In this document: positions 4,346 to 35,454 of the stretch, in pieces | Layout of the letters: the number at the start of each line of letters is the position of its first letter | How positions within the stretch are numbered: position 1 is the stretch's first letter | DNA from: Mageeibacillus indolicus UPII9-5 | GTDB taxonomy: Bacteria > Bacillota > Clostridia > Saccharofermentanales > Fastidiosipilaceae | Direction of reading: 5' to 3' | Length of the DNA stretch: 64,000 nucleotides | NCBI RefSeq assembly: GCF_000025225.2 | Contig: NC_013895.2 | Span: forward strand, 1,054,001 to 1,118,000 | Translations under genes and position numbers: made by a program | Notes under the pieces: model-generated | The model's database searches: none | The model's input: the letters and a program-made list of their open reading frames with translations, nothing else | What the model was told of the DNA's origin: nothing

Positions 4346-4401
4346 TTGTCTAAAATTGAGGAAATTTGTCGACTATACCACCAAGTGAACGGTTGTAAAT
4401 T
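4346..4401 (+). promoter_or_regulatory. 0A-box-like array and -10 of the tadZ-cpaF-tadBC operon
   Basis: Three hexamers at exact 10-bp steps: TTGTCT (4346-4351), TTGAGG (4356-4361), TTGTCG (4366-4371). A weak -10, TAAATT (4396-4401), follows after 24 bp and no TTGACA-like -35 is placed for it. The same arrangement precedes the other two Tad loci. Units match the Spo0A box TGNCGAA at five or six of seven bases. That an activator binds here is inference. Confidence 0.65.
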
Positions 4402-4432
4402 GGGTTCATAAAACTAAAAGGTTGGCTACACG

Positions 4433-5572
4433 ATGAAAATTGCTATTTTTGATAAAGATTATAAGTATCTGCTGAACCTAGCTGGGAAGCTATCATTTTT
4501 ATGTCCTCGCGAAGAGTTCTCCGTATTTAATGAGCAAAAAAAGCTTGTATACGATCTGGTAACAAGGAATATCGATTTGCTGATAGCAGCAACGAACCCA
4601 GCCTTGCCGGCCGAGACACTTGAGCATTGCGAAACTCTTAAGCTATACAAAGAAAGGCCAGGTGGTTTTATCGAAAATCTCGCTGACGGTTTTTCCACCT
4701 GCGCCAAATGTAATGATGGATCGGATACGAACGGATCAGGCTGTTACAGCAATCTTACATGCGCGGCCAACGCCAGCGAAGCCACTGACCTTGTGCAAGA
4801 AATAAATCCCTATTACTGTACCGATTTCAGCCGCTACACTCCCCCAAAAAGGATCGCTGAATTTATTTTAAATCGAGCTGCAAACCATCCCGACCGCATA
4901 AATACCGTCGGTAAGATGATCGGCTTGCTTGCCCCGCCCTGTGATAACACCCAAGCAGTTTCAGCCGTCAACAAGCTGGTAGCTCAATATTCCACGCTAG
5001 GTCTGAAATTGCTGATTCTACCGTTTTGTCCACAACTTCTTTTTCCACTTCCTTGGTTAAATACAATTAACGGACATCATTTAAATGGAAATTCAACAGC
5101 TGATGAAAAAGTTAACGTTTCATCAGTTGAGGCATCCACAAATATATCAGCTGATTTCGACGACAAGCCGACGCTTAGCGAACTGATAAAAGCCATAAAC
5201 ATTGAAAACGGCGATGTGAATTCAATGTTCAAGCAAAGTGAGATTGAGCTCACGCCCAATGTAAGATTACTCTTGCCCTTTCGTCGTTATGACGACCTCA
5301 TTAATCTTCAGACGGAGGAATGCACTTCACTTATAGTGGCCTTCAAAGAATTTGTACGAATAAGCGAACCTTTTACAGTAGGAATAATTTATATGTGCGG
5401 GCTTTCACCGGCTTCAACTGTTGCTTGCCTGAACCTCACCGGGACTACTCAAATTATATCGCCAACTATACCGGCATTTAATCACGTATGGCAACTCGAG
5501 CTGAAAGATATTATGGAAATTTCACCAGAGTTGAAAACAAAAATAACTCACTTGCCGATACTCGACCTGTAA
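4433..5572 (+). CDS. TadZ/CpaE-like Tad pilus protein with degenerate ATPase domain
   Basis: A 379-residue protein, first gene of a Tad operon. The N-terminus (MKIAIFDKDYKYLLNLAGKL) resembles a receiver-type domain as in CpaE/TadZ. Around residues 160-200 the text MIGLLAPPCDNTQAVSAVN ... GLKLLILPFCP has the strand-loop-helix-strand rhythm of a MinD/CpaE ATPase, but the Walker A glycines and lysine are missing. In other Tad systems TadZ places the machinery at the pole. No signal peptide or membrane segment is seen; a Cys-rich linker lies at about residues 90-130. Assignment rests on position directly before cpaF and on this weak fold pattern, so it is tentative. Confidence 0.6.
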   Translation: MKIAIFDKDYKYLLNLAGKLSFLCPREEFSVFNEQKKLVYDLVTRNIDLLIAATNPALPAETLEHCETLKLYKERPGGFIENLADGFSTCAKCNDGSDTNGSGCYSNLTCAANASEATDLVQEINPYYCTDFSRYTPPKRIAEFILNRAANHPDRINTVGKMIGLLAPPCDNTQAVSAVNKLVAQYSTLGLKLLILPFCPQLLFPLPWLNTINGHHLNGNSTADEKVNVSSVEASTNISADFDDKPTLSELIKAINIENGDVNSMFKQSEIELTPNVRLLLPFRRYDDLINLQTEECTSLIVAFKEFVRISEPFTVGIIYMCGLSPASTVACLNLTGTTQIISPTIPAFNHVWQLELKDIMEISPELKTKITHLPILDL

Positions 5573-5595
5573 AATCAGGTGAAAGCGAGGATAAC

Positions 5596-6753
5596 ATGGC
5601 TGAACTTGACCAAGCATTGATTAATGAAATTAAACATAATTTACTTACTACATTTTCACCTGATACCCAACTAGCCTTACGCAGAGAAATCGCTATCGCC
5701 ATAGATCGCAAACTATCTTCCGGAAATATTGCTTTGCGCTTGCGCAATGAATATATAAATTATATATTCAACTCCATTGTTGGCCTGGACGTGCTTCAGC
5801 CGCTGATGGATGATCCTTCTATAACCGAAATAATGGTCAATGGCAAAAATACTGTTTTTGTTGAACGTCACGGCAAATTACAACCGGCAGGGGTCAAATT
5901 CAATTCGCAGCAGCATTTAGAAGAAGTAATAACCGGTATATTTGCACGGGCTAATAAGGAACTGAGCTTAGGACATCCGATCACTGACCTCAGGTTGGAG
6001 GACGGCTCAAGAGCCAATGCCGTTTTAGCACCTATTGCCCCGGACGGACCGGTTTTGACCATTCGCAAATTTACCGGTATTTTGCCAACCCCTGATGAAA
6101 TTGTCGCTTCCGGCTGTTTAAACAAACAAGCGATGGAATTTTTGGCTGAAGCCATAAAGGCTAAGGAAAGCATATTTATTTGTGGCGGTACATCGGCTGG
6201 AAAAACAACCTTACTTAACGCACTGTCAACTTTTATACCTGTTCAAGAACGCATTATAACGGTTGAAGACTCGGCAGAACTTCAATTACGCAATCAACCT
6301 AATTTAGTTAAATTGGAAGCTCGGCCCGGTACAGTTGAAGGCCAAGGATCAGTCACCATAGCCGACCTAATAAAAACGGCCTTACGCATGCGCCCTGATC
6401 GCATTATTGTCGGTGAAGTGCGTGGCGATGAAGCCTACATGTTAATTCACGCTGCCAACACCGGGCATCCCGGCACCCTTTGCACAGGACACGGCAACAG
6501 TTCGGCCGACATGTTGATTCGTCTAACCAATATGATCTCCGGCTGCACCCGCTTGCCTTATCAGGCAATTTTACGAAATTTAGTCACAAGCATAAGATAC
6601 ATGATTAATATCAAGCGTCTCAGTAACGGTCGCAGACGGGTCATGTCCATCGATAGAGTAATCGGCTGCGATGAGCATTCAGTAAATCTAAGTCCAGTAT
6701 TTATCTACGACGAAATTAATGACTGCCTAAAAAATATTTCAGATGGGATTTGA
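5596..6753 (+). CDS. cpaF: CpaF/TadA-type pilus assembly ATPase
   Basis: Hexameric secretion ATPase that powers polymerisation of Flp pilin at the membrane. Walker A GGTSAGKT is at about residues 197-204, Asp box ITVEDSAELQL next, Walker B RIIVGEVRGDEA, and His box GHPGTLCTGHGNSS. With 385 residues it has the CpaF N-terminal domain (PLMDDPSITEIMVNGK). The open frame extends up to 5488 inside the upstream gene, but ATG 5596 has GCGAGG five bases before it and lies just past the tadZ-like stop at 5572. Not to be confused with the tRNA deaminase also called tadA at 38583. Confidence 0.93.
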   Translation: MAELDQALINEIKHNLLTTFSPDTQLALRREIAIAIDRKLSSGNIALRLRNEYINYIFNSIVGLDVLQPLMDDPSITEIMVNGKNTVFVERHGKLQPAGVKFNSQQHLEEVITGIFARANKELSLGHPITDLRLEDGSRANAVLAPIAPDGPVLTIRKFTGILPTPDEIVASGCLNKQAMEFLAEAIKAKESIFICGGTSAGKTTLLNALSTFIPVQERIITVEDSAELQLRNQPNLVKLEARPGTVEGQGSVTIADLIKTALRMRPDRIIVGEVRGDEAYMLIHAANTGHPGTLCTGHGNSSADMLIRLTNMISGCTRLPYQAILRNLVTSIRYMINIKRLSNGRRRVMSIDRVIGCDEHSVNLSPVFIYDEINDCLKNISDGI

Positions 6754-6827
6754 CAAGAAAATTTGCTAGAGAGAAATTGACAAAGTTGTTTTGCTAAAAA
6801 TACTTACCGGAAAGGAGAAAATAAAAT

Positions 6828-8465
6828 ATGAGGAATATTTTAAATGAATTGGCAAACAAATACCGCCGATATCGAGAAACAGTTCTTCTTGGAGCACTGG
6901 GGCTGATATTGATGTTTCCGGTAATCCGGCTGTACACCGACAATCTGATTTTAAATGTTTTATTGACGCTTCCCTTAACTTGGCCACCGGTTCACTGCTT
7001 AAAGCTGCTTTTGGCCTCTCGCCGGGCAAGACTGTATAGGCTTATTTTCGGACATTTTTTACAAATTATGTCCGCTGAGCTGACCGGTGGAATGACCTTT
7101 ACCAACGCCTTTACCGGGGCCATTGCCGATTTGGTCCTCATAACAGGAACACGTAATCGTTTAATGCAGCAATTATGCAACGCCTCCGGAATGCTAGCTG
7201 CTCACCTGCCGGCGGCTCAAGTATTGGACGAACTGAGCAATCAAAGCGTTTGCCGTGAAGCCAAACCAATTTTAAAAATATTTTCCCTACAGTTGAGAAA
7301 CAATGGCAATATGAATAACCTCTGCAAATTTGCGACCACGATGGTCAACGATTTAAACGACACGGAAGCTCAAATAACTGCCGACAGCAACAAACAAACC
7401 GTCGAAGCCTTCATTATGGCTGCAATGCCTTATATCATGTCAGCCATTTTGCAATTTTCTGCCGGAAGCTATTATGCCCAGGCTTCCATTACCACCCTAG
7501 GCCGAGTTATGAAACTGGCTTCTTTATTTGTCGCTGTAACAGCTTCTGCCCTGACTTTTTATATTGTTTCCCAAGGGCAGAGTGACGTGATCCCATCTAG
7601 TCGGCCGCTTTTCCCGATAAACACTTGCAGTAAAAGTAAAATTCTTTTACGTATAGGACAATCGCTTAAGCAGTTTTTGCCGCAAACAGTTTTACTTAAT
7701 TTGCAAAGCAATCTGGCGCAAATAGGCATGCCTCAACCGCCGGTCGCCAAGCCAGACATGAAATCCTACTCGAACCATGGCGTAAAATTGGGTGGTTTGC
7801 CGCCGACGCAGCAGACACCGCCCAACGACAATTCCAACTTAACTTATGTTGACTTTTTTTGTGCCACCTTGCTACCAATTTTTCTAATCGGCTGTTCTAT
7901 AACAGGCTTGCTCTTATACGGCATGAATACCGGGCTGTGGCTGTTTCCGTTCGGCGGTATAGGTCTGGTTTTACTTTTCATGCAACAGCCCAAGCAAAAA
8001 GCCGAGCTGTGTCGTTGTGATCTGATCAATAAATTTCCTTTTTTCGCTGGCTTGATTAACGCACTATTGAACAGCGGTTTTGTGCCTTATCGTGCCTTGG
8101 AAATAAGTATTAACCTTTATGCCGGTGAAACCGATGTGCTCGGTAATGCTCTACGGAAAATAAATGCCGACATGCGCCGTGGGGAAAATTATTGCCGTGG
8201 TTTGGTTGATTTAGCCAAACACAGTTATGTACCGGAAATACAATCAGCTTTAAACCTGATTAATCAATATGCTATACAAGGAAATGGGCAAGCCTTAACT
8301 CTATTGGCGGTACAATGTAACACCTGTTGGCAATTGAGTCGCAATACTATGCGAAAATATCGTGAAAAAAGCACTTTTAAAATACTGATTCCAATGATGT
8401 TAAACCTGATATCAATAATAATCCTTACGGTCGCCCCGGTTATTGCCACATTCAGTTTCAGCTGA
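6828..8465 (+). CDS. Fused TadB-TadC pilus platform protein
   Basis: A 545-residue inner-membrane protein in place of the usual separate TadB and TadC (each near 300). The first half has two hydrophobic segments near residues 20-55, a cytoplasmic type II secretion F-like helical region (GHFLQIMSAELTGGMTFTNA) and two more segments near 180-245. A charged and Pro-rich linker of about 80 residues follows, then a second copy of the layout: membrane segments near 340-390, INALLNSGFVPYRALEIS with RRGENYCRGL, and a final segment near 515-540. Ribosome site GGAAAGGAG before ATG 6828. Last gene of the operon, 74 bases after cpaF. Confidence 0.8.
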   Translation: MRNILNELANKYRRYRETVLLGALGLILMFPVIRLYTDNLILNVLLTLPLTWPPVHCLKLLLASRRARLYRLIFGHFLQIMSAELTGGMTFTNAFTGAIADLVLITGTRNRLMQQLCNASGMLAAHLPAAQVLDELSNQSVCREAKPILKIFSLQLRNNGNMNNLCKFATTMVNDLNDTEAQITADSNKQTVEAFIMAAMPYIMSAILQFSAGSYYAQASITTLGRVMKLASLFVAVTASALTFYIVSQGQSDVIPSSRPLFPINTCSKSKILLRIGQSLKQFLPQTVLLNLQSNLAQIGMPQPPVAKPDMKSYSNHGVKLGGLPPTQQTPPNDNSNLTYVDFFCATLLPIFLIGCSITGLLLYGMNTGLWLFPFGGIGLVLLFMQQPKQKAELCRCDLINKFPFFAGLINALLNSGFVPYRALEISINLYAGETDVLGNALRKINADMRRGENYCRGLVDLAKHSYVPEIQSALNLINQYAIQGNGQALTLLAVQCNTCWQLSRNTMRKYREKSTFKILIPMMLNLISIIILTVAPVIATFSFS

Positions 8466-8496
8466 TTTCAGGCCTCGTTAAGCGGAAAGTGTTGAC

Positions 8497-10651: not shown

Positions 10652-12462
10652 TATTCGTCTAAACGCAATACGCTCATAAATGCCTCTTGTGGCAACTCAA
10701 CACTGCCCACCTGGCGCATACGTTTCTTCCCCTCTTTCTGTTTTTCCAACAGTTTCTTTTTACGTGAAATGTCGCCGCCGTAGCACTTGGCCAAAACATC
10801 TTTACGGAAAGCCTTGACAGTTTCGCGGGCAATAATTTTACCACCAATACAAGCTTGCACAGGAATTTCAAACATGTGCCGCGGAATATTTTCTTTCAAT
10901 TTTTCGGTCATACGCCGCCCTCGCGCATAAGCTTTATCTGCATGGACGATAAATGAAAGCGCATCTACCACTTCACCGTTGAGCATTATATCCAGCTTAA
11001 CCAAATCAGATTTACGATATTCTTTAAATTCATAATCCAAGGAAGCATAGCCGCGAGTACGAGATTTTAGCGCATCAAAGAAATCATAAATTATCTCATT
11101 CAGCGGCATCTCATAATGCAAACTTACCCGGCTGTCATCAATATAACTCATATTCTCATATATACCGCGGCGTTCTTGACACAAATCCATTACATTGCCT
11201 ACATATTCTTTCGGCAACATAATCGTTGCATTAACCAGAGGCTCTTCAATGTGATCAATCTCGCTGAGGTCAGGCATATTAGTCGGATTATCCATCCTAA
11301 TTGTTTTACCATCAGTCGTAATTACCTTGTACTCAACCGATGGAGCAGTTGAAATCAAGTCCAGACGGAACTCTCGCTCCAACCTTTCCTGAATGATTTC
11401 ATAATGCAACAAGCCCAGAAAACCGCAACGGAAGCCGAAACCCAGAGCTTTGGATGTCTCAGCTTCGAAAGAAAGTGCTGCGTCATTTATCTGCAGTTTT
11501 TCCAAAGCATCACGCAAATCATTGTACCGTGCACTGTCAGCCGGATAAAGGCCGCAAAATACCATCTGCTGCACGTGTTTATAACCAGGTAAAGGCTCAG
11601 AGGCCGGGTTCGCTTTCAAAGTAACCGTATCGCCTACAGCCGTATCCCTCACGTTTTTAATGCTAGCAACCAAATAGCCGACATCGCCGGCATAAAGTTT
11701 CGCGTCCGGCACTAGCACGCCAGGATTGAAGTGGCCAAGCTCAGTAACGACAAAACTTTTGCCAGTATTCATCATCAAAATTTCATCACCGACCTTGACG
11801 CAACCATCTTTGATTCGCACATTGACGATTACCCCACGATAACTGTCATATTTCGAGTCAAAAATCAACGCCCGCAACGGAGCATCCTCACTTCCGTGCG
11901 GCGGTGGTAAAAGTTTAACAATTTTTTCCAGAACATCATCAATGTTTATATCCGCTTTAGCAGATATACAAGGTGCTTCACTTGCATCCAAGCCGATGAC
12001 ATCTTCAATTTCACCCCGCACGACCTCCGGTTGAGCTGAAGGAAGATCGATTTTATTTATGACCGGCAAAATTTCCAAGTCCGCATCCAATGCCAAATAG
12101 ACGTTGGCTAAAGTTTGCGCTTCAATGCCTTGGGCGGCATCAACGACCAATACCGCTCCATCACAAGCGGCCAGGCTGCGGGAAACCTCATAATTGAAGT
12201 CAACATGTCCCGGCGTATCAATTAAATTAAGCTCATAATTATGACCGTCTTTAGCCATATAAAGCATTCTGACAGCCTGTGCCTTAATAGTGATGCCACG
12301 CTCCCGCTCTATATCCATGTTGTCCAAGACCTGGCTTTGCATTTCCCGCTCCGTCAAAACGCCGGTGTGTTCAATCAACCGATCGGCCAAGGTAGATTTA
12401 CCGTGATCGATATGAGCAATTATTGAAAAATTGCGGATGAACTTTTGCCTGTCTGAACTCAT
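10651..12462 (-). CDS. lepA: Elongation factor 4 (LepA)
   Basis: Ribosome-bound GTPase that back-translocates or remodels stalled ribosomes. Full length at 603 residues. G1 [15 protein letters not shown]2 [11 protein letters not shown]3 [13 protein letters not shown]4 NKIDLPSA are all intact, and the LepA-specific C-terminal domain ends with [19 protein letters not shown]. Start overlaps the lepB stop by four bases; this lepB-lepA coupling is old and widespread. Confidence 0.98.
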
Positions 12463-13103
12463 TTTACCCTCCCCAAACTGTAGAACGGAAAAATACGGAA
12501 AGCTAAATATCCCATGATCGCTTTCGCCGGCACAACGCCAAAAACTCTACTATCTGTGCTGTGACTTCGATTATCACCCAAAACGAAATAGCTGTCCTTT
12601 CCTAGCAAAACACGGCTGTAGCTGCCGATTAATTCGGTCACGACACCTGAAGGCAAATATTTTTCCGGCAATTTTTTATCATTCACAAAAACTTGGCCGT
12701 CTTTAATTTCAACTGTTTCGCCAGGCAAAGCCACGATACGTTTCACTATGTCTTTATCAATATCAGGATTGTCAAGTTTAGCAGCGTTTATCGTAACAAT
12801 GTCTCCACGGTCATAAGGACGACTAAACGTAGTCCGCAATTTATTTACCACCACTCTGTCCTGCGGTTTCAAGGTAGGGAACATAGATCTACCTTGCACT
12901 ATGTTTACCTGAAAAACGAACTGTGACAGGAAATAATACAGCACCAGCGTGATACAGACAAACTTTACCCATTCCAGTACGTTCTTAAGCTTGCCATTGG
13001 AGTTTCCTTGCGACCCACCGGTTGATTCAACCCGGTCGAGCGCCGGTTCCGCTGCAGGTATCGGTTCTGTCATCTCTTCTTTCAGAAATTTTTCATCTGT
13101 CAT
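12459..13103 (-). CDS. lepB: Signal peptidase I
   Basis: Membrane serine-lysine protease that removes signal peptides from exported proteins. 214 residues: a cytoplasmic N-tail of about 45, one membrane segment ([16 protein letters not shown]), nucleophile Ser73 in GRSMFPTL, general base Lys121 in [12 protein letters not shown], and the [14 protein letters not shown] box. All catalytic parts are present, unlike the paralogue at 13269. A 165-base gap separates it from that paralogue, and lepA follows by overlap. Confidence 0.96.
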
Positions 13104-13268: not shown

Positions 13269-14564
13269 CTATCTTATACGTCCAAATTTGTGCATCGGTG
13301 CCGTTCTAAGCACACACTCGCCGACGATATCCGAACGAAGAATTGGGCCGAAGAAACGACTATCCAAGCTAGCACTTCGATTATCTCCCAAAACATAATA
13401 TTGATTTTTATCCAAGACAACTTTCTTAAAGCGCAGATCTATCGGCTCCGTCACCGTACCCGAAGCCAGATACGGCTCGTCAAGTTTTTCGCCGTTAACG
13501 TAAACAGCCTCATCTTTCAGTTCAACAGTGTCACCACCTACCGCCACAACCCGCTTGACCAAATCGCCAACCTGAATATGTTCAGACAGATTACCGCTGT
13601 CAAGGATAATTATATCGCCACGCCTGATCGCTCCAATATGGGCAGCTAGCAAATTAACTAGGACATGCTCGCCGTCATCCAGAGTCGGTTGCATCGCAAC
13701 TCCGCTAATCGCATTTCTCCGGCAGACGTAGCTGTTAAATAAAAAAGCGATTACCAGAACCAGACATAAAGTCTTTAGCCAACTCAACGTTAATTTAGCA
13801 TAGCGGTGCCAGCCGCTTTTCATGGCAGACACGCTGTAAGCATTCTCCAAATCAGATGGGCAACTGACACGTTTTATGTTATCCGTCAAAGTCGCACTGT
13901 GAGGTCGTCTAAGCATTTCACGGCGATGCGCTGATTTTTTGCCACCTAATTCCAACAACAGCTTTTCCGGCAAAATTTTGGCTGAAGAATGAATGGCTTT
14001 AGTTGAATAATCGTTCGCCTGGTCAGCGGTGACATCATGATGGTTTAACATTTCATCAGGTGAAATCTTGGACAATTCAAGAAATTGGCCGTTTCCCTTT
14101 TTTATTTTGGACAATTTTGGCAACTTGAACGGTGACCCCGATTTAGCCGTCGGCTTGCTTTCCTTGCGACAATCAACACTAGGTTCTTTGAGCGTCCCTT
14201 TATTCGCCACGCTGGGAACCAATGATGTCTGCTCGCCGTTCACGCTCTCCGTCATTGATGCAGTTAATTGCAGCATTTCCGGCGTAATACGGACTGTATT
14301 TCTGGACAAATCAGGCTTGGGGGCATAGTTCCCGGCAGCCCCCGCAGAGGCTGGCACATCGTTCGACATGGCCTGACGAATATCCCCGGCCGTTCCGGAT
14401 ACGGTTCCGTCAGAAGAACTGTTAGCCACCTGATTCGCCGCTTTGTTCTCCTTAGCAGCAGCAAAATCAGCCGTAAGATGAGCCAACCGTTGCTGATCTA
14501 CCGCAGGTCGCCGCACTGGCTTACTGTTGTCAGATCGATTAATCTTCTTGCCGAAAAACATCAT
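13269..14564 (-). CDS. Signal-peptidase-like paralogue, catalytic Ser replaced by Ala
   Basis: 431 residues. The C-terminal 175 follow signal peptidase I: one membrane segment near 258-278, then GVAMQPTL where active enzymes have G-x-S-M-x-P-T-L, so position 290 is Ala (codon GCG at 13695-13697). The lysine (Lys337, DLVKRVVAVGGD) and the LGDNRSASLDSRFFG box are kept. The first 250 residues are a cytoplasmic extension rich in Ser, Lys and Pro with no domain I know. With no nucleophile it should be inactive as a protease; it may bind signal peptides or LepB. The ATG overlaps the aspS stop by four bases. Confidence 0.85.
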   Translation of the reverse strand: MMFFGKKINRSDNSKPVRRPAVDQQRLAHLTADFAAAKENKAANQVANSSSDGTVSGTAGDIRQAMSNDVPASAGAAGNYAPKPDLSRNTVRITPEMLQLTASMTESVNGEQTSLVPSVANKGTLKEPSVDCRKESKPTAKSGSPFKLPKLSKIKKGNGQFLELSKISPDEMLNHHDVTADQANDYSTKAIHSSAKILPEKLLLELGGKKSAHRREMLRRPHSATLTDNIKRVSCPSDLENAYSVSAMKSGWHRYAKLTLSWLKTLCLVLVIAFLFNSYVCRRNAISGVAMQPTLDDGEHVLVNLLAAHIGAIRRGDIIILDSGNLSEHIQVGDLVKRVVAVGGDTVELKDEAVYVNGEKLDEPYLASGTVTEPIDLRFKKVVLDKNQYYVLGDNRSASLDSRFFGPILRSDIVGECVLRTAPMHKFGRIR

Positions 14565-17746: not shown

Positions 17747-18487
17747 TCATTCAAATTCATAGGTCAAATTAGCCAAAGCCATAATGCCGGCCGTTTCAGT
17801 TCTCAGGATACGTCGCCCTAAGCTGACTACCTGAAAGCCGCTTTCTTTAAGAACACCAATTTCATCGGCTGCCAAACCTCCCTCCGGCCCTATTACAATG
17901 CAGATATGTTCAGGAATGCCACAATGTTTGCGATAATCACTTATGGCATCGGCCAAACTTAGACTTCGCTCTTCTTCCCAAGCCACCACCCGCAAGGTGT
18001 TCGGCAAAAGCGCAAGCTCGGCAACGCAAGCCTTCAGATCGGTAACTGGATGAATAATCGGACATCCTGTACGGCCGGACTGCAAGGCCGCAGCAGCGAT
18101 TATTTTGTTCCAACGTATCACTTTTTTGCTCAAATCCTCTTTTTTGACCCTTGCTATGGATCGTTGCAAGTTAAGCGGATAAAAATCGGTTGCTCCAAGT
18201 TCGACGCCTTTTTGCAAAATAAATTCCCATTTGTCACCCTTAGGCATACCTTGGATAAGATAGACTCGGTACGGAGGTTCAGTATCCGCCAAACAATCTC
18301 CCATTCGTTTTACGCAGCCATTTTTTCCTAACTCACTGAAAAAGCGTCGGCCGGACTTGTCCACAAGCAGAACTTTTTCACCCGATAGCGCACGTTGCAC
18401 ATTACACAGATGATGCCGAGCCGCTGCATCCAAACTGATTTGCTGCCATCCTTCATCCAAATCGACTTCCAATCTTACTTTCTTCAT
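17747..18487 (-). CDS. rsmE: 16S rRNA m3U1498 methyltransferase RsmE
   Basis: SPOUT methyltransferase for N3 of U1498 in 16S rRNA. 246 residues with an N-terminal PUA-like domain (HHLCNVQRALSGEKVLLVD) and the knotted C-terminal domain: QKGVELGATDFYPL, IVIGPEGGLAADEI and SLGRRILRTETAGIMAL, the family's SAM-knot motifs. First gene of the rsmE-hisS-aspS run. Its upstream region, shared with exoA, holds a 3x TTGTCG array at 18669-18694. Confidence 0.95.
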   Translation of the reverse strand: MKKVRLEVDLDEGWQQISLDAAARHHLCNVQRALSGEKVLLVDKSGRRFFSELGKNGCVKRMGDCLADTEPPYRVYLIQGMPKGDKWEFILQKGVELGATDFYPLNLQRSIARVKKEDLSKKVIRWNKIIAAAALQSGRTGCPIIHPVTDLKACVAELALLPNTLRVVAWEEERSLSLADAISDYRKHCGIPEHICIVIGPEGGLAADEIGVLKESGFQVVSLGRRILRTETAGIMALANLTYEFE

Positions 18488-18668: not shown

Positions 18669-18694
18669 CGACAAAATCCGACAAACTTCGACAA
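18669..18694 (-). promoter_or_regulatory. Perfect 3x TTGTCG array, 0A-box-like
   Basis: CGACAA occurs at 18669-18674, 18679-18684 and 18689-18694, that is TTGTCG on the minus strand at exact 10-bp steps. The first unit continues to TGTCGAA, a full match to the Spo0A box. It lies 32 bp before the exoA -35 and 182 bp before the rsmE start, so either side could be the target; a TATATT on the minus strand follows 15 bp after the array. Confidence 0.65.
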
Positions 18695-18773: not shown

Positions 18774-19529
18774 GTGACAAAATTAATTTCATGGAATGTC
18801 AACGGTCTGCGCGCCTGTGTTGAAAAAGGATTCGTAGAATCGATGCAACATCTTTCTGCCGATATAATATGTATCCAAGAAAGCAAATTACAAGCCGGAC
18901 AAATAGATCTCGATTTACCTGGATACTGCCAGTATTGGAATTACGCCCGCAAAAAAGGCTATTCCGGCACGGCTATTTTCAGCAAAATCGAACCTCTGCG
19001 AGTAACCTATGGAATGAATATGCCGGATCACGATCAAGAGGGTCGCCTGATCACCGCTGAATTTCCCGACTACTACTTATGTACGGTTTACACACCGAAC
19101 TCCCAGGACGGACTTAAACGCTTGGTTTATCGACAAAGCTGGGAACGAGATTTTCTCACCTATCTTCAGGAACTAAGACGAGTTAAACCGGTTATCATAT
19201 GCGGGGACTTAAATGTAGCCCACCGTGAAATCGATCTGAAAAATCCTGCTGCCAATCGCAAAAATCCCGGCTTTACCGATGAAGAACGCGCAGAATTTCA
19301 AACTTTGCTCGATGCAGGATTTGTTGATACTTTTAGATATTTTTATCCTGAAAAGCCGGAAGAGTATTCGTGGTGGTCTTACAGGTTCAACGCCCGTTCA
19401 CGTAATGCAGGATGGAGAATTGACTATTTTCTAGTTAGCAACGAATTGACCGACCGTTTGCAATCCGCCTCCATTCATCAAGAAATTTTCGGTTCGGACC
19501 ATTGCCCGGTCGAACTGATTTTAAAATAA
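18774..19529 (+). CDS. exoA: Exodeoxyribonuclease III / AP endonuclease
   Basis: Cuts DNA at abasic sites and trims 3' blocks in base excision repair. Family motifs in order: LISWNVNGLRA, CIQESKLQ, YSGTAIFSK, ICGDLNVAH, and the catalytic SDHCPVEL at the C-terminus. I place the start at GTG 18774 (AAAGG nine bases before it), giving 251 residues, the usual length; the in-frame ATG at 18699 lies before the likely promoter and adds 25 unrelated residues. radA follows 38 bases later. Confidence 0.95.
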   Translation: MTKLISWNVNGLRACVEKGFVESMQHLSADIICIQESKLQAGQIDLDLPGYCQYWNYARKKGYSGTAIFSKIEPLRVTYGMNMPDHDQEGRLITAEFPDYYLCTVYTPNSQDGLKRLVYRQSWERDFLTYLQELRRVKPVIICGDLNVAHREIDLKNPAANRKNPGFTDEERAEFQTLLDAGFVDTFRYFYPEKPEEYSWWSYRFNARSRNAGWRIDYFLVSNELTDRLQSASIHQEIFGSDHCPVELILK

Positions 19530-19567
19530 ATCGGCAGATAATTAATGATTATCAATACGAGGTGTCT

Positions 19568-21019
19568 ATGTCTAAAGAAAAATCGCTTTATTTTTGCAGT
19601 GAATGCGGCTATGAAACGCCGGGATGGTTGGGCAAATGCCCGGCCTGTGGGATGTGGAATACCTTAGTTGAATCTACTAAAATAACCGGCAAGCCAACCA
19701 ATCGCAAAACTGCAGGGGGCGGAATCGGCGCCGGGATCCAAAATGGTTGGTTGCAGAGTCAAGTCCTCGCCGATGCGACAAAAACCGGCCGAACCGCCTC
19801 AGATACGGGCACAATTTTGACACTTGCTGAAATAGAAGCAAAAAAAGTTGACCGCTATTCTTCCGGGATGGCAGAGTTTGATCGTGTTTTGGGCGGCGGC
19901 TTCGTTCCCGGATCGATCGTTTTGGTAGGTGGCGATCCTGGTATTGGAAAGTCAACTTTGCTTTTACAAATTTGCGCCGAAGTTCCTACGAACAATATAA
20001 TTCTTTACGTCTGCGGTGAGGAATCACCAGAACAAATAAAACTGCGGGCGCGGCGGCTTAAAGTAAGTCGCAAAGAACTGCGACTGCTGCCCGAGACTTC
20101 TTTCGACAAAATTGCCGCCGCCATAATAACCCACAAGCCATCTCTGGTCATCATCGATTCAATTCAGACTATTTACGCTGAAGATATTGCTTCCGTGCCA
20201 GGCTCAGTCAGCCAAGTGCGGGACTGTACAGCCGGATTTATGCGCTTGGCCAAAATGCTTAATATAACTATGGTTCTTATCGGTCATGTGACCAAAGATG
20301 GCAATCTGGCTGGGCCACGTATTTTGGAACATATGGTTGACACGGTGCTTTACTTTGAGCAAAATGCCCAAAGCGACCTCCGCTTTATTCGGGCCGTAAA
20401 AAACCGTTTCGGGGCAACCAATGAGCTAGGGATTTTCAGCATGCATTCAACCGGACTCACGGCAATTCAAAATCCGTCAGAAATGATGCTAGCCGGACGG
20501 CCGCTCAATACACCCGGTACGACCTTAACCGTAACTTCTGAAGGAACTCGACCGCTGTTGATCGAACTGCAGGCCTTGATTGTTCCCTGCAATTACTCCG
20601 TCCCGCAGCGCATGACATCCAATTTAGACCGCAATCGGGTTTCTATGTTATTAGCCGTGGCTGATAAGTTTCTACAAGCCAAATTTGATACCTCCGACGT
20701 TTACATAAATATCGTAAGCGGTCTGAAAGTAAATGATACTGGAACCGACTTGGCGGTAGTATCCGCCCTTCTCTCCAGCAAACGGAATTTACCGTTGCCG
20801 CCGGATACTCTTATTTGCGGCGAAATAGGCCTTACTGGAGAACTGCGTCCGGTAAACTCAATTGCCGGCAAAATTGCCGAGGCAGATAGACTTGGGATTA
20901 AGCAGATGATTTTGCCGAGCAGCAACCACTCTACTTGTCGGCAGTTGAAAGAACCCTCACGTGTAGAATTGATTTTTGTCGATAATTTACGGCAAACAGC
21001 CGATATTTTGTTCAAATAG
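19568..21019 (+). CDS. radA: DNA repair helicase RadA (Sms)
   Basis: Ring ATPase that drives branch migration in recombination and, in naturally competent Firmicutes, in transformation. 483 residues: C4 zinc finger CSECGYETPGWLGKCPACG near the N-terminus, RecA-like core with Walker A GGDPGIGKSTLL, the RadA signature KNRFGATNELGIF, and a Lon-like C-terminal domain. ATG 19568 has GAGGTG ahead; the frame's upstream part overlaps exoA and is not used. Sits between exoA and ispD, likely one transcript. Confidence 0.97.
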   Translation: MSKEKSLYFCSECGYETPGWLGKCPACGMWNTLVESTKITGKPTNRKTAGGGIGAGIQNGWLQSQVLADATKTGRTASDTGTILTLAEIEAKKVDRYSSGMAEFDRVLGGGFVPGSIVLVGGDPGIGKSTLLLQICAEVPTNNIILYVCGEESPEQIKLRARRLKVSRKELRLLPETSFDKIAAAIITHKPSLVIIDSIQTIYAEDIASVPGSVSQVRDCTAGFMRLAKMLNITMVLIGHVTKDGNLAGPRILEHMVDTVLYFEQNAQSDLRFIRAVKNRFGATNELGIFSMHSTGLTAIQNPSEMMLAGRPLNTPGTTLTVTSEGTRPLLIELQALIVPCNYSVPQRMTSNLDRNRVSMLLAVADKFLQAKFDTSDVYINIVSGLKVNDTGTDLAVVSALLSSKRNLPLPPDTLICGEIGLTGELRPVNSIAGKIAEADRLGIKQMILPSSNHSTCRQLKEPSRVELIFVDNLRQTADILFK

Positions 21020-23543: not shown

Positions 23544-24176
23544 TCAATCCATTTTCTGCCAACTTGGATCGGACGGATTCTCCCTAAAAGCCAGTAACTT
23601 TCGCTGTTGTTTGGCATCTATGTAACCCGACTCTAACGCAACACTTAAAAGCTCCGTCAAATCCGTCAAAGTAAACAACTTAACGTCAGCAACTGTCATC
23701 GCTTCTTCCGCTCTTTTCATACCATAAGTAAAAATTGCCACCATTCCCTGCACATCAGCGCCAACAGACCGCAAAGTGTCAACTACCTGTAATGACGAAC
23801 CGCCGGTAGAGACTAAATCTTCAACTACTACGGTTTTTATTCCGGTCGGGACAACCCCTTCAACCGCATTTTCCTTGCCGTGATCTTTAGCTTTGGCGCG
23901 AACAAAACCCATGGGCAAACCAAGTTGCCAACCACAAATGGCAGCGTGAGGAATACCGGCCGTAGCCGTTCCCATCAGACATCCCGCATCCGAAAATTCC
24001 CTTCTTATCAGGTCACACAAGGCATTTTCAACTTTTTCCCTTTCCTCGGGGTAGGATAAAATCAAACGATTATCACAATAAATAGGCGATTTTATACCTG
24101 AGGCCCAAGTGAACGGGGCATCAGGGGACAAAGTTACCGCCTTAATTTTCAAAAGGATTTCAGCTATCTCACGCAT
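23544..24176 (-). CDS. pyrE: Orotate phosphoribosyltransferase
   Basis: Joins orotate and PRPP to orotidine 5'-phosphate. 210 residues; YCDNRLILSYP for orotate, the mobile loop RAKAKDHGKENAVEG and the PRPP motif VVVEDLVSTGGSSLQV are intact. Last gene of pyrCKDFE, 122 bases after pyrF; that gap holds no evident terminator. Convergent with the MATE gene. Confidence 0.97.
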   Translation of the reverse strand: MREIAEILLKIKAVTLSPDAPFTWASGIKSPIYCDNRLILSYPEEREKVENALCDLIRREFSDAGCLMGTATAGIPHAAICGWQLGLPMGFVRAKAKDHGKENAVEGVVPTGIKTVVVEDLVSTGGSSLQVVDTLRSVGADVQGMVAIFTYGMKRAEEAMTVADVKLFTLTDLTELLSVALESGYIDAKQQRKLLAFRENPSDPSWQKMD

Positions 24177-28401: not shown

Positions 28402-28466
28402 TTGTCGCTTGTTGTCGCTTTTTGAGGAAAATTGACGATCACGCTTAAGGCAAAAACTCTTAGACT
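28402..28466 (+). promoter_or_regulatory. Four-unit 0A-box-like array and -10 of the pilin operon
   Basis: TTGTCG (28402), TTGTCG (28412), TTGAGG (28422), TTGACG (28432): four units at exact 10-bp steps. TAGACT (28461-28466) follows the last unit after 23 bp and has no fitting -35. The last 28 bases of the array align without gaps to those before tadZ (4345-4372) and the prepilin peptidase (35399-35426), with 18 bases the same in all three. Confidence 0.7.
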
Positions 28467-28503: not shown

Positions 28504-28932
28504 ATGCCGGATAAAAATTTATCACCAATATCCTCACCCCAAGCCAAACCACTGCCTAGCCTTCCGAATCGACTTACGAATGAGAATGCCAAAGCCAAAC
28601 AAGGACTATCGAACACAGTCACGACCACAGCCAAAAGCAGCCACATCAAAGCAGAATATTCGCGCAATGCCGGGAAAAATCTGCCGCTGAGATTGCGAAT
28701 AACTCTCCCCCCTTACCTAAAGAAAAAACTATTCTTATGCCGAGAAGGGATTACATGCATGGCCGAAAACAAAGACGGCGCGGCGACACTTGAAGTGGTA
28801 ATTATTATTGCCGTACTTATGGCGATAGCTCTAATTTTCAACACCCAACTGCGCCAATTCGCGCAAAACCTGTTTCACAAAGTATTTGACGATCAAAGCA
28901 TTCTGAGTCAAATCGGCAATATCGGAGGGTAA
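28504..28932 (+). CDS. Flp-type (type IVb) prepilin with long N-terminal extension
   Basis: Major-pilin candidate of the Tad system. The prepilin motif is near residue 92: KDG, cleavage, AATLE with Glu at +5, then a 17-residue hydrophobic stretch (VVIIIAVLMAIALIF). The mature part is only 50 residues, normal for Flp. The 90 residues before it are unusual: polar and Lys-rich, with no signal. AGGAGG is placed well for ATG 28504; an internal ATG at 28759 (AAGGG nine bases ahead) would give a plain 57-residue Flp prepilin. Both may be made. Ends two bases before the FHA gene. Confidence 0.78.
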   Translation: MPDKNLSPISSPQAKPLPSLPNRLTNENAKAKQGLSNTVTTTAKSSHIKAEYSRNAGKNLPLRLRITLPPYLKKKLFLCREGITCMAENKDGAATLEVVIIIAVLMAIALIFNTQLRQFAQNLFHKVFDDQSILSQIGNIGG

Positions 28933-28933: not shown

Positions 28934-30421
28934 ATGGCTGAACTGAAGCCAACCAGACTAATCAATTTTAATTATGTTTTGACGGCAGGAGAAAGCTTCA
29001 GCGACTTTCAAAATGAAGCTCTTAGTTCCATGAACTGGCACGGACTTCTCCTGCCTACCTGCCAAATAGAACCCGAACACATGAGTTTAGTCTGCCGAAT
29101 AAGTAATAAAATAAGCTTAAGCGAGCTTGGTAGAACTGAAAAACTTGACATCGGGTTTATGGTCACCCTGATAAATCATTGCGGTGAGTTATGGGCAGCC
29201 GTGGATAACAGTCAATTGGTGGCCGACAACATACTGTTTGATCCGGACTCAATATTTTTCCCGCCGGATAAACTTGATGCTTGCGAAGCCGGCTTTATCT
29301 ACTTGCCGGTATGGCAAGAACAAAACGATAATAGCCACGCCTGCGCTTTAGCCACAGGCGGTCGGCTAGGTTTGGTTGAATTGTTCTTGCAGCAAAACCA
29401 GCAGCTGAACGAGAATCAAAAAATTGAACTAATCAACGCCGCAGCTGAAAGTATGGCCGGCTTAGTCGAGTGTGTAAATAAATTGTCCTATACTGCCACC
29501 GCTCCATCGGACTTGGCTACACCTCAACCTTATTTCAACGATGTCGCCAAGACTTATACAGCCGCTCCGTCAAACCAAGCTGCGTCCCCACCTCTAAACG
29601 GAAATACTATTATACCTGCCTATATAAAAGCAGGGCAAGCTTCAACTAAAGGTAGGTTTGACGCTTTCAGCGACCACAATTATGCAGAAAATACCGGCAC
29701 AAATATTCGGAACAGAAACAGCAATCGCTACTTGGCTTTACTTATTCAAGCAGTTTATTTAGTGGTATGCCTCACCTTGCCGTTTTGGTTACCTGATTCT
29801 CACCGCAAACCCTCATTTATCGCGATAAGCATTGAATGGTTAGTGCTACTATGCCTAGATTTAAAACTGTTTGTATTCAGCCGCCGTGGACTTTTTAAAA
29901 GAAAGCCTATAAATCGAAAAACTTCGACCTCGTTCAATACCGACCGAGCAGCTAATGCACCCGAGATCCGCCAGCCTCCGCCGACCGCCAACTTTTTGCA
30001 GTTCTCTGCCATGCCTTCGGATAAAGAAGAAACAGTTAAAGCCGTGGATAATTCGTTGCTCTTCTCAGAGACCATAATCGATAAACAAGCTGCCGTACCG
30101 AACAACCCTGCTTTCATCTCACGCTCCATACCTGGGAGTTCAAATGAACGCCGTAGCGACAGAATATACATTCTAAGGAATAACTTTGTTTTGGGCACAG
30201 ACCCGATAAAAGCCGACTGCCTCCTGCCTAACCACGGCCATCGCCCCCGTTCCGTGGCGCGTATAAAGAATAATGCCGGAACATACTATATAGAACCACT
30301 AGTTCGTGACAGTGTATCCCTGAATGGGAAAAAACTAAAACCCTATACCGACTGTCCCTTGCCGAATACCGCAACCATAAGACTTAACAACACAGCTTAC
30401 TATTTTTGCTGTAACAGCTAG
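28934..30421 (+). CDS. DUF6382-like, FHA-domain membrane protein of the pilin operon
   Basis: 495 residues. The first 180 look like the DUF6382 domain that goes with Tad genes in Clostridia (LINHCGELWAAVDNSQLVADN region). Two hydrophobic segments lie near residues 273-315, then a disordered linker, and residues 410-495 form a forkhead-associated phosphothreonine-binding domain: FVLGTDPIKADCLLPNHG, RSVARIKNNAGTYYIEPL, SVSLNGKKL. Such proteins may link the pilus machine to Ser/Thr kinase signals; role is inferred. GGAGG within the pilin stop region serves its ATG. Confidence 0.75.
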   Translation: MAELKPTRLINFNYVLTAGESFSDFQNEALSSMNWHGLLLPTCQIEPEHMSLVCRISNKISLSELGRTEKLDIGFMVTLINHCGELWAAVDNSQLVADNILFDPDSIFFPPDKLDACEAGFIYLPVWQEQNDNSHACALATGGRLGLVELFLQQNQQLNENQKIELINAAAESMAGLVECVNKLSYTATAPSDLATPQPYFNDVAKTYTAAPSNQAASPPLNGNTIIPAYIKAGQASTKGRFDAFSDHNYAENTGTNIRNRNSNRYLALLIQAVYLVVCLTLPFWLPDSHRKPSFIAISIEWLVLLCLDLKLFVFSRRGLFKRKPINRKTSTSFNTDRAANAPEIRQPPPTANFLQFSAMPSDKEETVKAVDNSLLFSETIIDKQAAVPNNPAFISRSIPGSSNERRSDRIYILRNNFVLGTDPIKADCLLPNHGHRPRSVARIKNNAGTYYIEPLVRDSVSLNGKKLKPYTDCPLPNTATIRLNNTAYYFCCNS

Positions 30422-31267: not shown

Positions 31268-31356
31268 ACTCAATTCATGTCCCGACAAATCCAACTCACA
31301 TTTATGTAAAGCATTTGTAATATTTCTCTAATATTTATTCAATCAAATCAATTTTT

Positions 31357-31428
31357 TGCGGATAAGTAGGATAACTATGTGAATAACCGTCTGAACAAAG
31401 CAAAATCAGCCATGCTTTTTGTGGATAA
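31357..31428. promoter_or_regulatory. Three phased DnaA-box-like sites
   Basis: TGCGGATAA (31357-31365), TGTGAATAA (31378-31386) and TGTGGATAA (31420-31428), all the same way round; the last is the exact complement of TTATCCACA, the others differ by one base. Start-to-start distances are 21 and 42 bp. They lie in the 233-bp gap between upp and the nucleotidyltransferase gene, next to AT-rich DNA. No dnaA or dnaN is near, so not an obvious chromosome origin. Confidence 0.5.
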
Positions 31429-31436
31429 CCGGTTGA

Positions 31437-32177
31437 TTACTGCCAGGTGTCCTTGATCGCGGCATAGCTTTCTACCGTGCCTATATCGATACATTTTCCC
31501 TCAATTCGATACAAGTAAATCGGTTTACGCTTATAAAGCCAAGCCGGAAATCTTCCCGGAGAATCCATGTTGTTTCCTTCCGATTCATATTGCAGCAGCA
31601 AAGGTAACGTTTCCGCTTTATAGAAGTAAGTTGCATAAACGACAATATTACTTTTAGGATTAGCCGGCTTTTCTTCAAGGGAAGTAATAATTCCTCCGGC
31701 GTCAACTTCCGCAATAGCAAATCTGCTCAACTCGTCACAGTTTTCCAAGCTTTGACCGACTACCATGTCCTTTTTCAGGCGCTTAAACGTCAAATACGCC
31801 TGCCGCAAAGAAAACTCGAACAAATTGTCACTTGCTAACACGAGAACGTCTTCCTCATAACCGAGTTGGTTTAAAGCCAATTTTAAATCACCCAACGCAC
31901 CCAAGCGAATAGATTCTTCTCCAGTACCGTCGTCCAAAACCTTTATTTGCCACGGCAAAAATTCATTCTTTAGCTTGCGAAAATAGGCATCAAAAACTGC
32001 GGCGAATTTGTGGTTGGTAACCAAAGTTACCGACGACACGTCACTTATCTCCGCTACTTTTTGTAAAAGCAAATCTAAAATTGTCTTTTCACCGACAGGC
32101 AGGAGAGCCTTAGGTAAATTTTTAGTCAACGGATAAAGGCGTGTGGCATATCCAGCCGCCAAGATGATAACCTTCAT
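31437..32177 (-). CDS. Sugar-phosphate / phosphocholine nucleotidyltransferase family protein
   Basis: 246 residues of the NTP_transferase fold. The N-terminal signature IILAAGYATRLYPLTKNLPKALLPVG matches glucose-1-phosphate thymidylyl/uridylyl and LicC-type cytidylyltransferases over its first 26 residues; VLASDNLFEFS is the metal-binding Asp region, and SLEEKPANPKSNIVVY the sugar-site segment. Substrate cannot be set: no partner sugar or teichoic-acid gene is nearby. Its ATG overlaps the stop of the methyltransferase upstream by one base, so they are co-translated. Confidence 0.8.
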   Translation of the reverse strand: MKVIILAAGYATRLYPLTKNLPKALLPVGEKTILDLLLQKVAEISDVSSVTLVTNHKFAAVFDAYFRKLKNEFLPWQIKVLDDGTGEESIRLGALGDLKLALNQLGYEEDVLVLASDNLFEFSLRQAYLTFKRLKKDMVVGQSLENCDELSRFAIAEVDAGGIITSLEEKPANPKSNIVVYATYFYKAETLPLLLQYESEGNNMDSPGRFPAWLYKRKPIYLYRIEGKCIDIGTVESYAAIKDTWQ

Positions 32178-33469: not shown

Positions 33470-34190
33470 ATATCGCTACCCTCACATCCAAGCATATTGT
33501 AAAATATTTCGACTAAAGTTTATCATAATTCTCATTCGTCTGTCTGATTTCGCACACAACCTTACCACCTAGGCCGACATTAGCCCACAGGCTTAACGGC
33601 AAATTTTTCTTTCTGTCCAAGGGCAAGGCGCAATAAGTATTACCATTGTCAAATCAGAGCCAAAATTTGTCAAGATTTCATAAATTAATTTCTCGCAATT
33701 ACCGTAAATTCAAGTAAAACGAATAGCCTCTGCCTAGTTTTAACAGAGGAGATGCCCAAAAATTGCTAGCTCCTCGTCAGAACAGCTACCAGGGGCAAGG
33801 CGAATGTACTTCTGCAGAACTGCATCTGTTCACCAAAGTGATTTGACAGGTGCTGCTATTTTTCGTAGGCAGTGAACCGTTGAGCAATTGACTGCCGGCA
33901 GCACAGCATGGTAACTTACTTTAGTTGTGGTGAAGAAAAATTGCCGCAAAAGCCTTGCCAGCAGCCAAAACCAAGGAACAGATAGCCACCAAACCAGGCA
34001 AATTATCAAATAATCTGCATAATTTAAAGTTAATTATATGCAGCAAAAACCTGACCACTAATAAAAACGTATTTCGTAGTTAACATTAGCGTAACAATTT
34101 ATTTTCCATTTAGCTTTATAGTAAACATGTAAATTACACACTGGCCGATTTTTTAAAAGATTACGCACAATTATTAAGTAGGTAAATGCT
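33470..34190. other. Gene-free 720-bp region with stable hairpins
   Basis: No reading frame of coding quality on either strand. Two plus-strand hairpins stand out: CCTCTG/CAGAGG around 33728-33749, and a longer one at 33821-33853 with GCATCTGT pairing ACAGGTGC and an inner TCAC/GTGA, followed by TGCTATTTTT. The part 33720-33960 is GC-richer than the AT-rich 33980-34180 that precedes the XRE gene. I tried RNase P RNA, tmRNA, 6S RNA, SRP RNA and T-box signatures and recognise none. It may encode a structured RNA. Confidence 0.35.
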
Positions 34191-34436
34191 ATGAGAATTA
34201 ATTATAACAAGTTGTCATATCTTTTGAAAGTTTACAGAACTGCCCGTAATCTCTCACGAACCCAGATGGCAGAACTGCTAAATCTAAATAAAACCGTATA
34301 TTCGCGCATCGAAAATGCCCAGGTGCATATCGATCTCGACCTTTTGATAGTTATTGCCGAAGTTATGGGTTTGCCTCCGGTCACTCTCTTCGGTTATTTG
34401 TGCGATTATAACGAAGTAGCTTGCTTTGAATGGTAG
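34191..34436 (+). CDS. Small XRE-family DNA-binding regulator
   Basis: 81 residues, nearly all one Cro/C1-type helix-turn-helix: LLKVYRTARNLSRTQMAELL, then NLNKTVYSRIENAQVHIDLDLL as recognition helix and following helix. No sensor domain. The AT-rich upstream DNA and the 48-bp gap to mutM suggest its own promoter. Targets unknown; it could act on the adjacent mutM or its own gene. Confidence 0.85.
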   Translation: MRINYNKLSYLLKVYRTARNLSRTQMAELLNLNKTVYSRIENAQVHIDLDLLIVIAEVMGLPPVTLFGYLCDYNEVACFEW

Positions 34437-34484
34437 TTTTAATATATTCTTAAAACACTATCATCTGAAAAGCGAGGGGTACTT

Positions 34485-35327
34485 ATGCCTGAATTGCCGG
34501 AAGTTGAAAATATCCGCCGCAGTCTTGCGCCACATTTGTTGGATGAGTATTTAACGTTGAAGCAACCGTTTCATCCACAGGTTTGGATCAATCCGGGTGA
34601 TCTGCCGTGCCGTGATGTTAAAGTGACCGCCATTAACCGACGCGGCAAATACTTGGACTTCGTTCTCGACAGTAACCTGCATTTGGTGGCGCATTTGCGG
34701 ATGACCGGGCGTTTCACTTATACGGAAGATTTAGCTTCTCCCTGTCTGCCGCATACGCATGTGATATTTGCTGTTTCGCATTCCGTAGGTTTGCCTGCAC
34801 ATGCAGAGCTGCGATATTCTGATCCTAGGCGTTTTGGGAGGCTCATTCTGCTGAATGACACTGAGCTTAAAAGCTATAAATTCGGTTATAATTCACTAGG
34901 AGCCGAGCCGCTAAGCCCTGACTTCACTCCAGCTTACCTGCTAACAGCCGCCAGCAAACATCCACACGCTAAAATCAAATCCTTTTTGTTGGATCAAACC
35001 GTTATCGCCGGGTTGGGGAACATATATGCTGACGAGATTCTATACGCCTGCCGGCTGCACCCCTGTATACCGGTCGGAAGTATCTCCGAAGCGGCTTGGG
35101 AACAAGTGGTCAACGAAACTATACGCCTACTTTCATTATCGATCGCCAACCACGGTACGACTTTTCGTGACTACCGAGATGGTGACGGCAAACGAGGTGG
35201 ATTTCAATCTCTATTATGTGTCTACGGACGGGCGGGGCAAGCTTGTCCACGGTGTAACGGTATTCTTGCAACTACGCGCATATCAGGTCGCAGCACCGTG
35301 TATTGCCCCCAGTGTCAAGCCATGTAA
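34485..35327 (+). CDS. mutM: Formamidopyrimidine-DNA glycosylase
   Basis: Removes 8-oxoguanine and Fapy lesions and nicks the strand. 280 residues: PELPEVENIRR at the N-terminus with the catalytic Pro2 and Glu3, RRGKYLDFVL, HLRMTGRFTY, the helix-two-turn-helix (DQTVIAGLGNIYADEIL) and the C-terminal zinc finger C-x2-C ... C-x2-C (ACPRCNG ... YCPQCQ). Ribosome site GCGAGGGG. The loop after the H2TH is normal, so it should be active. Confidence 0.97.
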   Translation: MPELPEVENIRRSLAPHLLDEYLTLKQPFHPQVWINPGDLPCRDVKVTAINRRGKYLDFVLDSNLHLVAHLRMTGRFTYTEDLASPCLPHTHVIFAVSHSVGLPAHAELRYSDPRRFGRLILLNDTELKSYKFGYNSLGAEPLSPDFTPAYLLTAASKHPHAKIKSFLLDQTVIAGLGNIYADEILYACRLHPCIPVGSISEAAWEQVVNETIRLLSLSIANHGTTFRDYRDGDGKRGGFQSLLCVYGRAGQACPRCNGILATTRISGRSTVYCPQCQAM

Positions 35328-35399
35328 TCTCTGCTGCTTTGTCGGCCGTTTGGTATGGAGTCTCATCGTTTGGTGAACATTTTCGTGTTCTGGCGAAAT

Positions 35400-35454
35400 T
35401 TGTCGTTTTTTGACGAAACTTGTCGGTTCCCTCCCTTGCTCATCTGTTTAAACT
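35400..35454 (+). promoter_or_regulatory. 0A-box-like array and -10 of the prepilin peptidase gene
   Basis: TTGTCG (35400), TTGACG (35410), TTGTCG (35420) at 10-bp steps; decayed units TTGGTG (35370), TTTTCG (35380) and CTGGCG (35390) keep the same phase. The middle unit reads TGACGAA, a full 0A box. TAAACT (35449-35454) follows after 23 bp. Third of the three Tad loci with this layout. Confidence 0.7.

Follow-up and report, generated by a model that had tools for sequence, protein, structure and literature searches.

Tandem box arrays upstream of Tad pilus genes

The window analysed here, a 64,000-bp stretch of the genome of Mageeibacillus indolicus UPII9-5 (contig NC_013895.2, positions 1,054,001 to 1,118,000), carries three separate sets of Tad pilus genes, each preceded by an array of three or four short boxes (Table 1); we describe these arrays, the competence genes that share them and a Spo0A-like protein that may read them. 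The organism is presumably the one named BVAB3. The original prediction had reported the arrays at 4346, 28402 and 35400, and on re-reading their positions and their 10-bp steps proved exact, as did the distances from the last box to a -10-like hexamer. Its proposed hexamer, TTG[T/A][C/G]G, fits the other units but misses by one base at 4346, where TTGTCT stands; the 18 bases shared in its gap-free alignment were recovered, whereas the core spans 26 bases by our recount and not 28. Its list of arrays was incomplete, as it lacked an exact array on the minus strand (18694-18669) and a fourth tad unit outside the window. Allowing at most one mismatch, we find five three-box matches within its 64,000 bp against 0.00 expected (100 shuffles, none reaching this count), and the observation of box arrays is confirmed. 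The minus-strand array may serve either exoA-radA or rsmE, as neither side has a -10 hexamer at 23-24 bp.

Table 1. Features of the window and array sites elsewhere in the genome (positions are those of the window unless preceded by C1, the genome contig)
Feature	Position	Strand	Remarks
Three-box array, 10-bp steps (TTGTCT, TTGAGG, TTGTCG)	4346..4371	+	boxes at 4346/4356/4366
-10-like hexamer TAAATT	4396..4401	+	24 bp past last box
TadZ/CpaE-position gene, first of tad unit	4433..5572	+	named by position; no Pfam match
TadA/CpaF ATPase	5488..6753	+	sole T2SSE-family match in genome
TadB/C-like platform protein	6828..8465	+	T2SSF 17.1 bits, below cut-off 25.2
RsmE-type RNA methyltransferase	17747..18487	-	gene to which fourth array points
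Fourth array, TTGTCG x3 at 10 bp	18669..18694	-	exact; between exoA-radA (+) and rsmE (-)
exoA-like exonuclease (Exo_endo_phos)	18774..19529	+	followed by radA
radA-like recombination ATPase	19502..21019	+	name from domain make-up
Four-box array, 10-bp steps	28402..28437	+	boxes at 28402/12/22/32
-10-like hexamer TAGACT	28461..28466	+	23 bp past last box
Flp1-like pilin	28504..28932	+	PF16982, 40.7 bits, cut-off 33.5
DUF6382 protein	28934..30421	+	second gene in pilin unit
Three-box array, 10-bp steps	35400..35425	+	boxes at 35400/10/20
-10-like hexamer TAAACT	35449..35454	+	23 bp past last box
Prepilin peptidase-like TadV	35499..35978	+	Peptidase_A24 18.6 bits, below cut-off 26.5
211-aa Spo0A_C protein	C1:479738-480370		outside window
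Array site, fourth tad unit (tadG/E)	C1:659135		90-aa protein, DUF5702 protein, TadE-like protein
Array site before radC	C1:876650
Array site before comM-dprA-topA	C1:915006
Array site before comEA	C1:984844

The arrays extend to competence genes

The original prediction had proposed a whole-genome scan, and this was carried out on the single contig of 1,809,746 bases with the reversed pattern as the control. The exact three-box pattern matched four times, always within the window (control 0), while tolerating up to two mismatches raised the count to 15, spread over 10 distinct sites, as against two for the control; arrays thus occur far beyond the control and are mostly intergenic, neither at random level nor mainly inside genes. 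Eight of the 10 sites are intergenic; seven of these precede Tad pilus or competence genes and the eighth is the minus-strand array of the window. The remaining two of the 10 lie inside an open reading frame (ORF; site at 44690) and across the junction of two ORFs (site at 400677). Among the targets, Pfam confirmed ComEA (SLBB and HHH_3), ComM, DprA, RadC and one ParA-type ATPase. A common promoter element, one mark of a competence regulon, is found at DNA-uptake and recombination genes, and we regard the competence/Tad regulon itself as close to certain.

A two-box search returned 36 matches (12 for the control) and added 21 places, 16 inside ORFs and five before genes, namely the Spo0A_C gene, parA-parB, rnhB-yraN, a PAP2-like gene and a gene for a secreted protein (several of these names being our own reading); some of these five promoter sites may be due to chance. 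The -10 hexamer behind the two boxes before parA-parB (L084, C1:8434-8450) stands at 33 bp, which adds one turn to the distance seen elsewhere.

Box consensus and promoter anatomy

Spo0A, the master regulator of sporulation in Firmicutes, recognises tandem boxes at 10-bp steps in promoters that lack a -35 element. The unit consensus of the Mageeibacillus genome, drawn from 31 boxes of our own listing, is TTGTCGAAA, which contains the 0A-box core TGTCGAA, whose contacted bases are given as G2, C4 and G5 in the consulted part of the source (PMC3485338). Target genes were directly recognised for 44 arrays. Counted from the last box, the start of a -10-like hexamer lies at 23 or 24 bp in 30 of them, at 33 or 34 bp only in seven and at neither distance in seven, the expectation from shuffles being about 0.85 per position. 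The spacing in Mageeibacillus is 24 bp for tadZ, 23 bp for flp, tadV, comEA, tadG, comM and radC, and 33 bp for parA. The last box would sit just upstream of the missing -35, as in activator-dependent promoters.

A Spo0A_C protein is the candidate regulator

A search for spo0A, likewise proposed at the outset, found one Spo0A-like gene with two boxes before it. Its product, a protein of 211 amino acids (aa), is the only Spo0A_C match in the genome, and the gene stands behind rplJ-rplL (gene names by our reading), with a two-box site, TTTGTCGCTTTTTGTCG, starting about 117 bp ahead of its ATG. The PF08769 match scored 40.0-41.5 bits (cut-off 25) but is confined to positions 1-63 of 104; the protein matched no receiver family, and TIGR02875, the Spo0A equivalog, scored 33.9 bits against a cut-off of 200. 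The inference of a single Spo0A-like activator for the scattered pilus genes thus draws support from the lone Spo0A_C match, the boxes at its own gene, the 0A-like consensus and the joint change of box and helix in two lineages described below. It requires correction on two points: the protein is not Spo0A itself, as its receiver is unmatched and its effector match is partial, and the regulon spans competence genes and not pili alone.

In a comparison set of 188 genomes of the order, Saccharofermentanales (Mageeibacillus included), the regulator had a match in 178 and PF08769 in 159, with one match per genome among those listed; among the matches listed, the PF08769 alignment mostly ends at positions 63-85, and three genomes (G014, G015 and G017) are among the few that reach 89-103. 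Thirty-three of 35 relatives scanned match Spo0A_C, and no other family matches more than two of them; no receiver family was listed for any of the 35, and the part of the order that was searched yielded no second Spo0A bearing a receiver. When the profile of the 35 relatives was run against the PDB, 1fc3 and 1lq1, both structures of Spo0A-C, were the only credible matches (E about 6 × 10−15). The base-reading helix, SRVERAIRHAIE, is kept, with Arg146 and Arg149 invariant across the 35 aligned rows and aligned with the recognition helix of Spo0A. We regard the 211-aa protein as the likely regulator of the arrays.

The N-terminal domain of the regulator (residues 14-55 of L053) has a near-invariant D21 and an invariant D52, each following a strand-like stretch in the alignment, and could be a shrunken receiver. 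In many of the genus g20 genomes retrieved (L289-L308) the gene lies beside ligA, 5-formyltetrahydrofolate cyclo-ligase, a small membrane protein and HU, again by our reading of the names.

Arrays across the order

Tandem pairs of boxes were counted against a control pattern throughout the comparison set. Genus g20, which appears to hold Saccharofermentans, gave 832 pair matches against 64 for the control, and 70 of its 85 genomes exceeded their own control; enrichment was weaker in g21 (81 against 22 in 23 genomes). In g20 genome G057 all seven array groups precede com, tad, recA-recX or nuclease-like genes, as do eight of the 10 in G062, the other two having no clear target. The targets in these two genomes comprise comM-dprA, comEC, comEA, tadZ-tadA-tadB, TadE/G-like genes, recA-recX and a recurring family of nuclease-like proteins of ~260 aa; Pfam confirmed ComEC, ComM, DprA, ComEA, TadA and RecA of G062, whereas its TadZ and TadE/G are named from position and our reading (Pfam match absent, or DUF5702 below cut-off). 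The gene targets thus agree between Mageeibacillus and g20 genomes of another family.

An unselected GTDB scan for exact three-box arrays yielded at least 120 arrays on at least 118 stretches. Of the 120 listed, 55 stand before tad, com or nuclease-like genes (44 directly, 11 via the next gene), 14 are inside ORFs, four are at an edge and 47 others have no recognised target. Within family f1, which includes Mageeibacillus, arrays of G045 and G046 precede unnamed proteins and, as seen in G046, a prepilin-peptidase-like gene as in the window (Peptidase_A24 25.7 bits, cut-off 26.5); those of G041 and G042 precede an unnamed protein of ~650 aa or lie inside an ORF, and that of G040 is inside an ORF.

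The ~260-aa family (L142:5443-6222 and 17 relatives) is multi-copy under the same arrays in Saccharofermentans. The one member scanned had no Pfam match; matches to endonuclease I and Bax1 were weak, and the predicted model, although confident (predicted local distance difference test, pLDDT, 89.9), had no convincing PDB match (best Foldseek E 0.25). PADLOC PDC-S68 matches in 18 of 18 members and our motif reading suggest a nuclease-like protein of the PD-(D/E)XK type.

Joint change of box and recognition helix in two lineages

The position preceding Arg146 corresponds in the alignment to a base-reading Glu of Spo0A, which we take to be E213 if chain 1lq1 starts at 148. It is Asp in Mageeibacillus and Glu in 62 of the 71 g20 genomes (of 85) in which it was first read; G092 was read later, and 13 genomes remain outside the count. 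The 62 Glu genomes have a median of nine pair matches, with two or more in 55 and none in four, while the three Ser genomes have 0, 0 and 1 and the five Val genomes 0, 1, 0, 1 and 0. Two or more pair matches therefore occur in none of the eight Ser/Val genomes versus 55 of the 62 Glu genomes (Fisher P=7 × 10−7; Mann-Whitney P=2 × 10−5; both tests ignore kinship).

At the tad promoter, the only promoter considered here, two Ser and four Val genomes have boxes of altered sequence in place of TTGTCG, at the same spacing. Ser genomes G085 and G091 have TTGTGA three times at 10-bp steps, 23 bp before TATGAT, and Val genomes G059, G060, G078 and G128 have TTCGGA or TTTCGG boxes 23-24 bp before the -10 hexamer; G106 (Ser) and G112 (Val) were left out, and the altered boxes were chosen by eye before a script measured the distances. 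The contacted bases shift while the promoter architecture stays, and this qualitative point is the stronger one. Box and recognition helix, as read from the aligned sequences, are shown to change together in two lineages. The regulator genes of G059 and G128 had at one stage seemed broken; this was dismissed, the stop being the natural end of the gene.

The Tad pilus as a candidate DNA-uptake pilus

Among the Tad components, TadA (T2SSE) and the Flp1-like pilin exceed their Pfam cut-offs while the peptidase, T2SSF and TadE matches fall below theirs, and TadA scores under the NCBIfam TadA cut-off. No ComGA/PilB-type ATPase was found besides TadA, which gives the one T2SSE match in the whole genome, and comEC, comEA and dprA are all present. 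Because the sole T2SSE ATPase is TadA while comEC is kept, no candidate other than the Tad pilus is evident for delivering DNA to ComEA/ComEC, and a role of this pilus in DNA uptake is probable.

Liberibacter crescens is a diderm alphaproteobacterium. Its Tad pilus has been linked to DNA uptake in the consulted part of one report (PMC8513845). The precedent for the role proposed here is Micrococcus luteus, in which two tad clusters and a peptidase form a competence pilus (PMC4322843, consulted in part); that species belongs to the phylum Actinomycetota, and the consulted part of the paper mentions neither a Spo0A-type regulator nor 0A-like arrays.

In the fourth tad unit, the TadE-like pilin protein (L085:3780-4841, C1:660779-661840), whose TadE match is below cut-off, appears to include a fused domain that resembles restriction endonucleases and belongs to the CDI EC869 family (PF21111, 32.6 bits against a cut-off of 27).

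Proposed regulon and alternative explanations

In the model that we favour, the arrays act as binding sites in tandem and would define a natural-competence regulon. The 211-aa protein probably binds neighbouring boxes, each a helical turn from the next, and would recruit RNA polymerase to promoters that lack a -35 and have their -10 hexamer 23-24 bp past the last box. All four units of the Tad pilus would be switched on jointly with comEA, comM-dprA and radC, as might the regulator's own gene, and the pilus would then serve in DNA uptake. At a probability of roughly three in four, we infer that a Spo0A-derived activator binds and activates in this way, in response to an inducing signal, a competence regulon whose DNA-uptake pilus is Tad. 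We also consider it rather probable, if with more reserve, that the DNA-binding half of Spo0A joined to a small new N-terminal domain became the master competence activator in this order of Clostridia, with the Tad pilus as uptake machine and a recognition code rewritten at least twice along with its sites.

The candidate resembles Spo0A in its C-terminal DNA-binding domain and box core and differs from it in having competence and pilus genes as targets. Competence regulons of Firmicutes are governed by ComK in Bacillus and ComX/SigX in streptococci. As there, a pilus and the genes of DNA uptake and recombination would answer to one activator; unlike there, the candidate regulator is a Spo0A_C protein and the pilus is Tad and not ComG. 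In literature searches, which extended neither to subscription journals nor to preprints, we found no work that connects Spo0A with the Tad pilus (with or without competence), that treats competence and a pilus in Mageeibacillus or that deals with natural competence of Saccharofermentans, and no such Spo0A-type competence/Tad regulon among the matches listed in further searches. The only paper found on BVAB3 with Spo0A, as far as the consulted part goes, groups this bacterium, which has seven 'sporulation' genes, with those Spo0A-encoding genomes that apparently do not form spores, and assumes it to be asporogenous (PMC3533761). The present data suggest that a bacterium thought sporeless has reassigned a Spo0A-like switch to gene uptake via a Tad pilus. 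If true, this would explain why it was counted as encoding Spo0A (PMC3533761), supply a candidate for the competence activator, along with many of its target genes, in a large order with gut, rumen and vaginal members, add a further case of Tad pili as DNA-uptake machines, and offer a compact natural experiment on a regulator and its sites changing specificity together.

Several observations weigh against this model. In Mageeibacillus, comEC has no upstream array, no recognised recA stands behind an array among the three-box (two-mismatch) and two-box matches, and the regulator's own promoter has no -10 hexamer at 23-24 bp. On the tree there are three residue changes, of which only two coincide with a change of arrays, and an independent-pairs test cannot reach significance; G101 has Ala and yet eight pair matches, G063, G084, G118 and G137 have Glu without any (G084 and G118 keeping degenerate boxes), and G092 has Glu with three pair matches against three for the control. 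Outside family f3, pair matches number 42 against 17 in f2, 31 against 34 in f4 and 10 against 15 in f1 minus Mageeibacillus, and the contexts located lie inside ORFs in five of five cases in f2 and, within f3 itself, in four of four from G050, G051 and G054. The regulator is conserved in families that have few or no arrays; conversely, G122 and G136 have 18 and 28 pair matches and no detected regulator; a search for a neighbour gene, made with a single query protein, likewise found nothing in them, so that a gap may be the cause. Tandem boxes were absent before the regulator gene in all 27 relatives inspected.

A first alternative, which we judge on the unlikely side, is that the Tad pilus has its role in adhesion or in the sensing of surfaces and, without being the DNA-uptake pilus, shares a stress or stationary-phase regulator with the com genes. 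Tad genes had previously been tied only to biofilm formation, adherence and virulence, according to the consulted part of PMC4322843, and the two-box sites at ParA-ParB, rnhB-yraN, the PAP2-like gene and the secreted protein hint at a broader programme, or at chance. Against this stand the lack of a detected ComG-type ATPase while comEA, comEC and dprA are kept, the predominance of com, recA, tad and nuclease-like targets in G057 and G062, and the need for tad genes in Micrococcus luteus transformation (PMC4322843).

The regulon could also be genuine with another transcription factor binding the arrays and the Spo0A_C protein doing something else, as the families with the regulator but with arrays at or near background, the array-bearing genomes in which it was undetected and the 27 box-less regulator genes would allow. 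We consider this improbable in view of the box core and 10-bp phase that match the 0A box, the single Spo0A_C match per genome listed with its conserved helix residues, the shift of the box with the recognition-helix residue in two lineages and the boxes at the regulator's own gene in Mageeibacillus. An alternative sigma factor that uses the arrays as its -35 elements would suit their fixed distance to the -10 hexamer but is very improbable, since 23-24 bp exceeds the usual spacer of 16-19 bp and the boxes repeat three to four times at 10 bp. Chance or simple repeats, which the GTDB-scan arrays without recognised target, inside ORFs or from unrelated taxa (some among the matches listed) might suggest, are refuted for the Mageeibacillus genome and genus g20 by the shuffles, by the excess over control in g20 and by the same gene targets in both.

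Other features of the window

A ComFC candidate on the minus strand (23544-24176) was read as pyrE instead, and no boxes were seen upstream of it. Downstream of aspS, two S26 signal peptidases are encoded side by side on the minus strand (12459-13103 and 13269-14564), one with a long N-terminal part.

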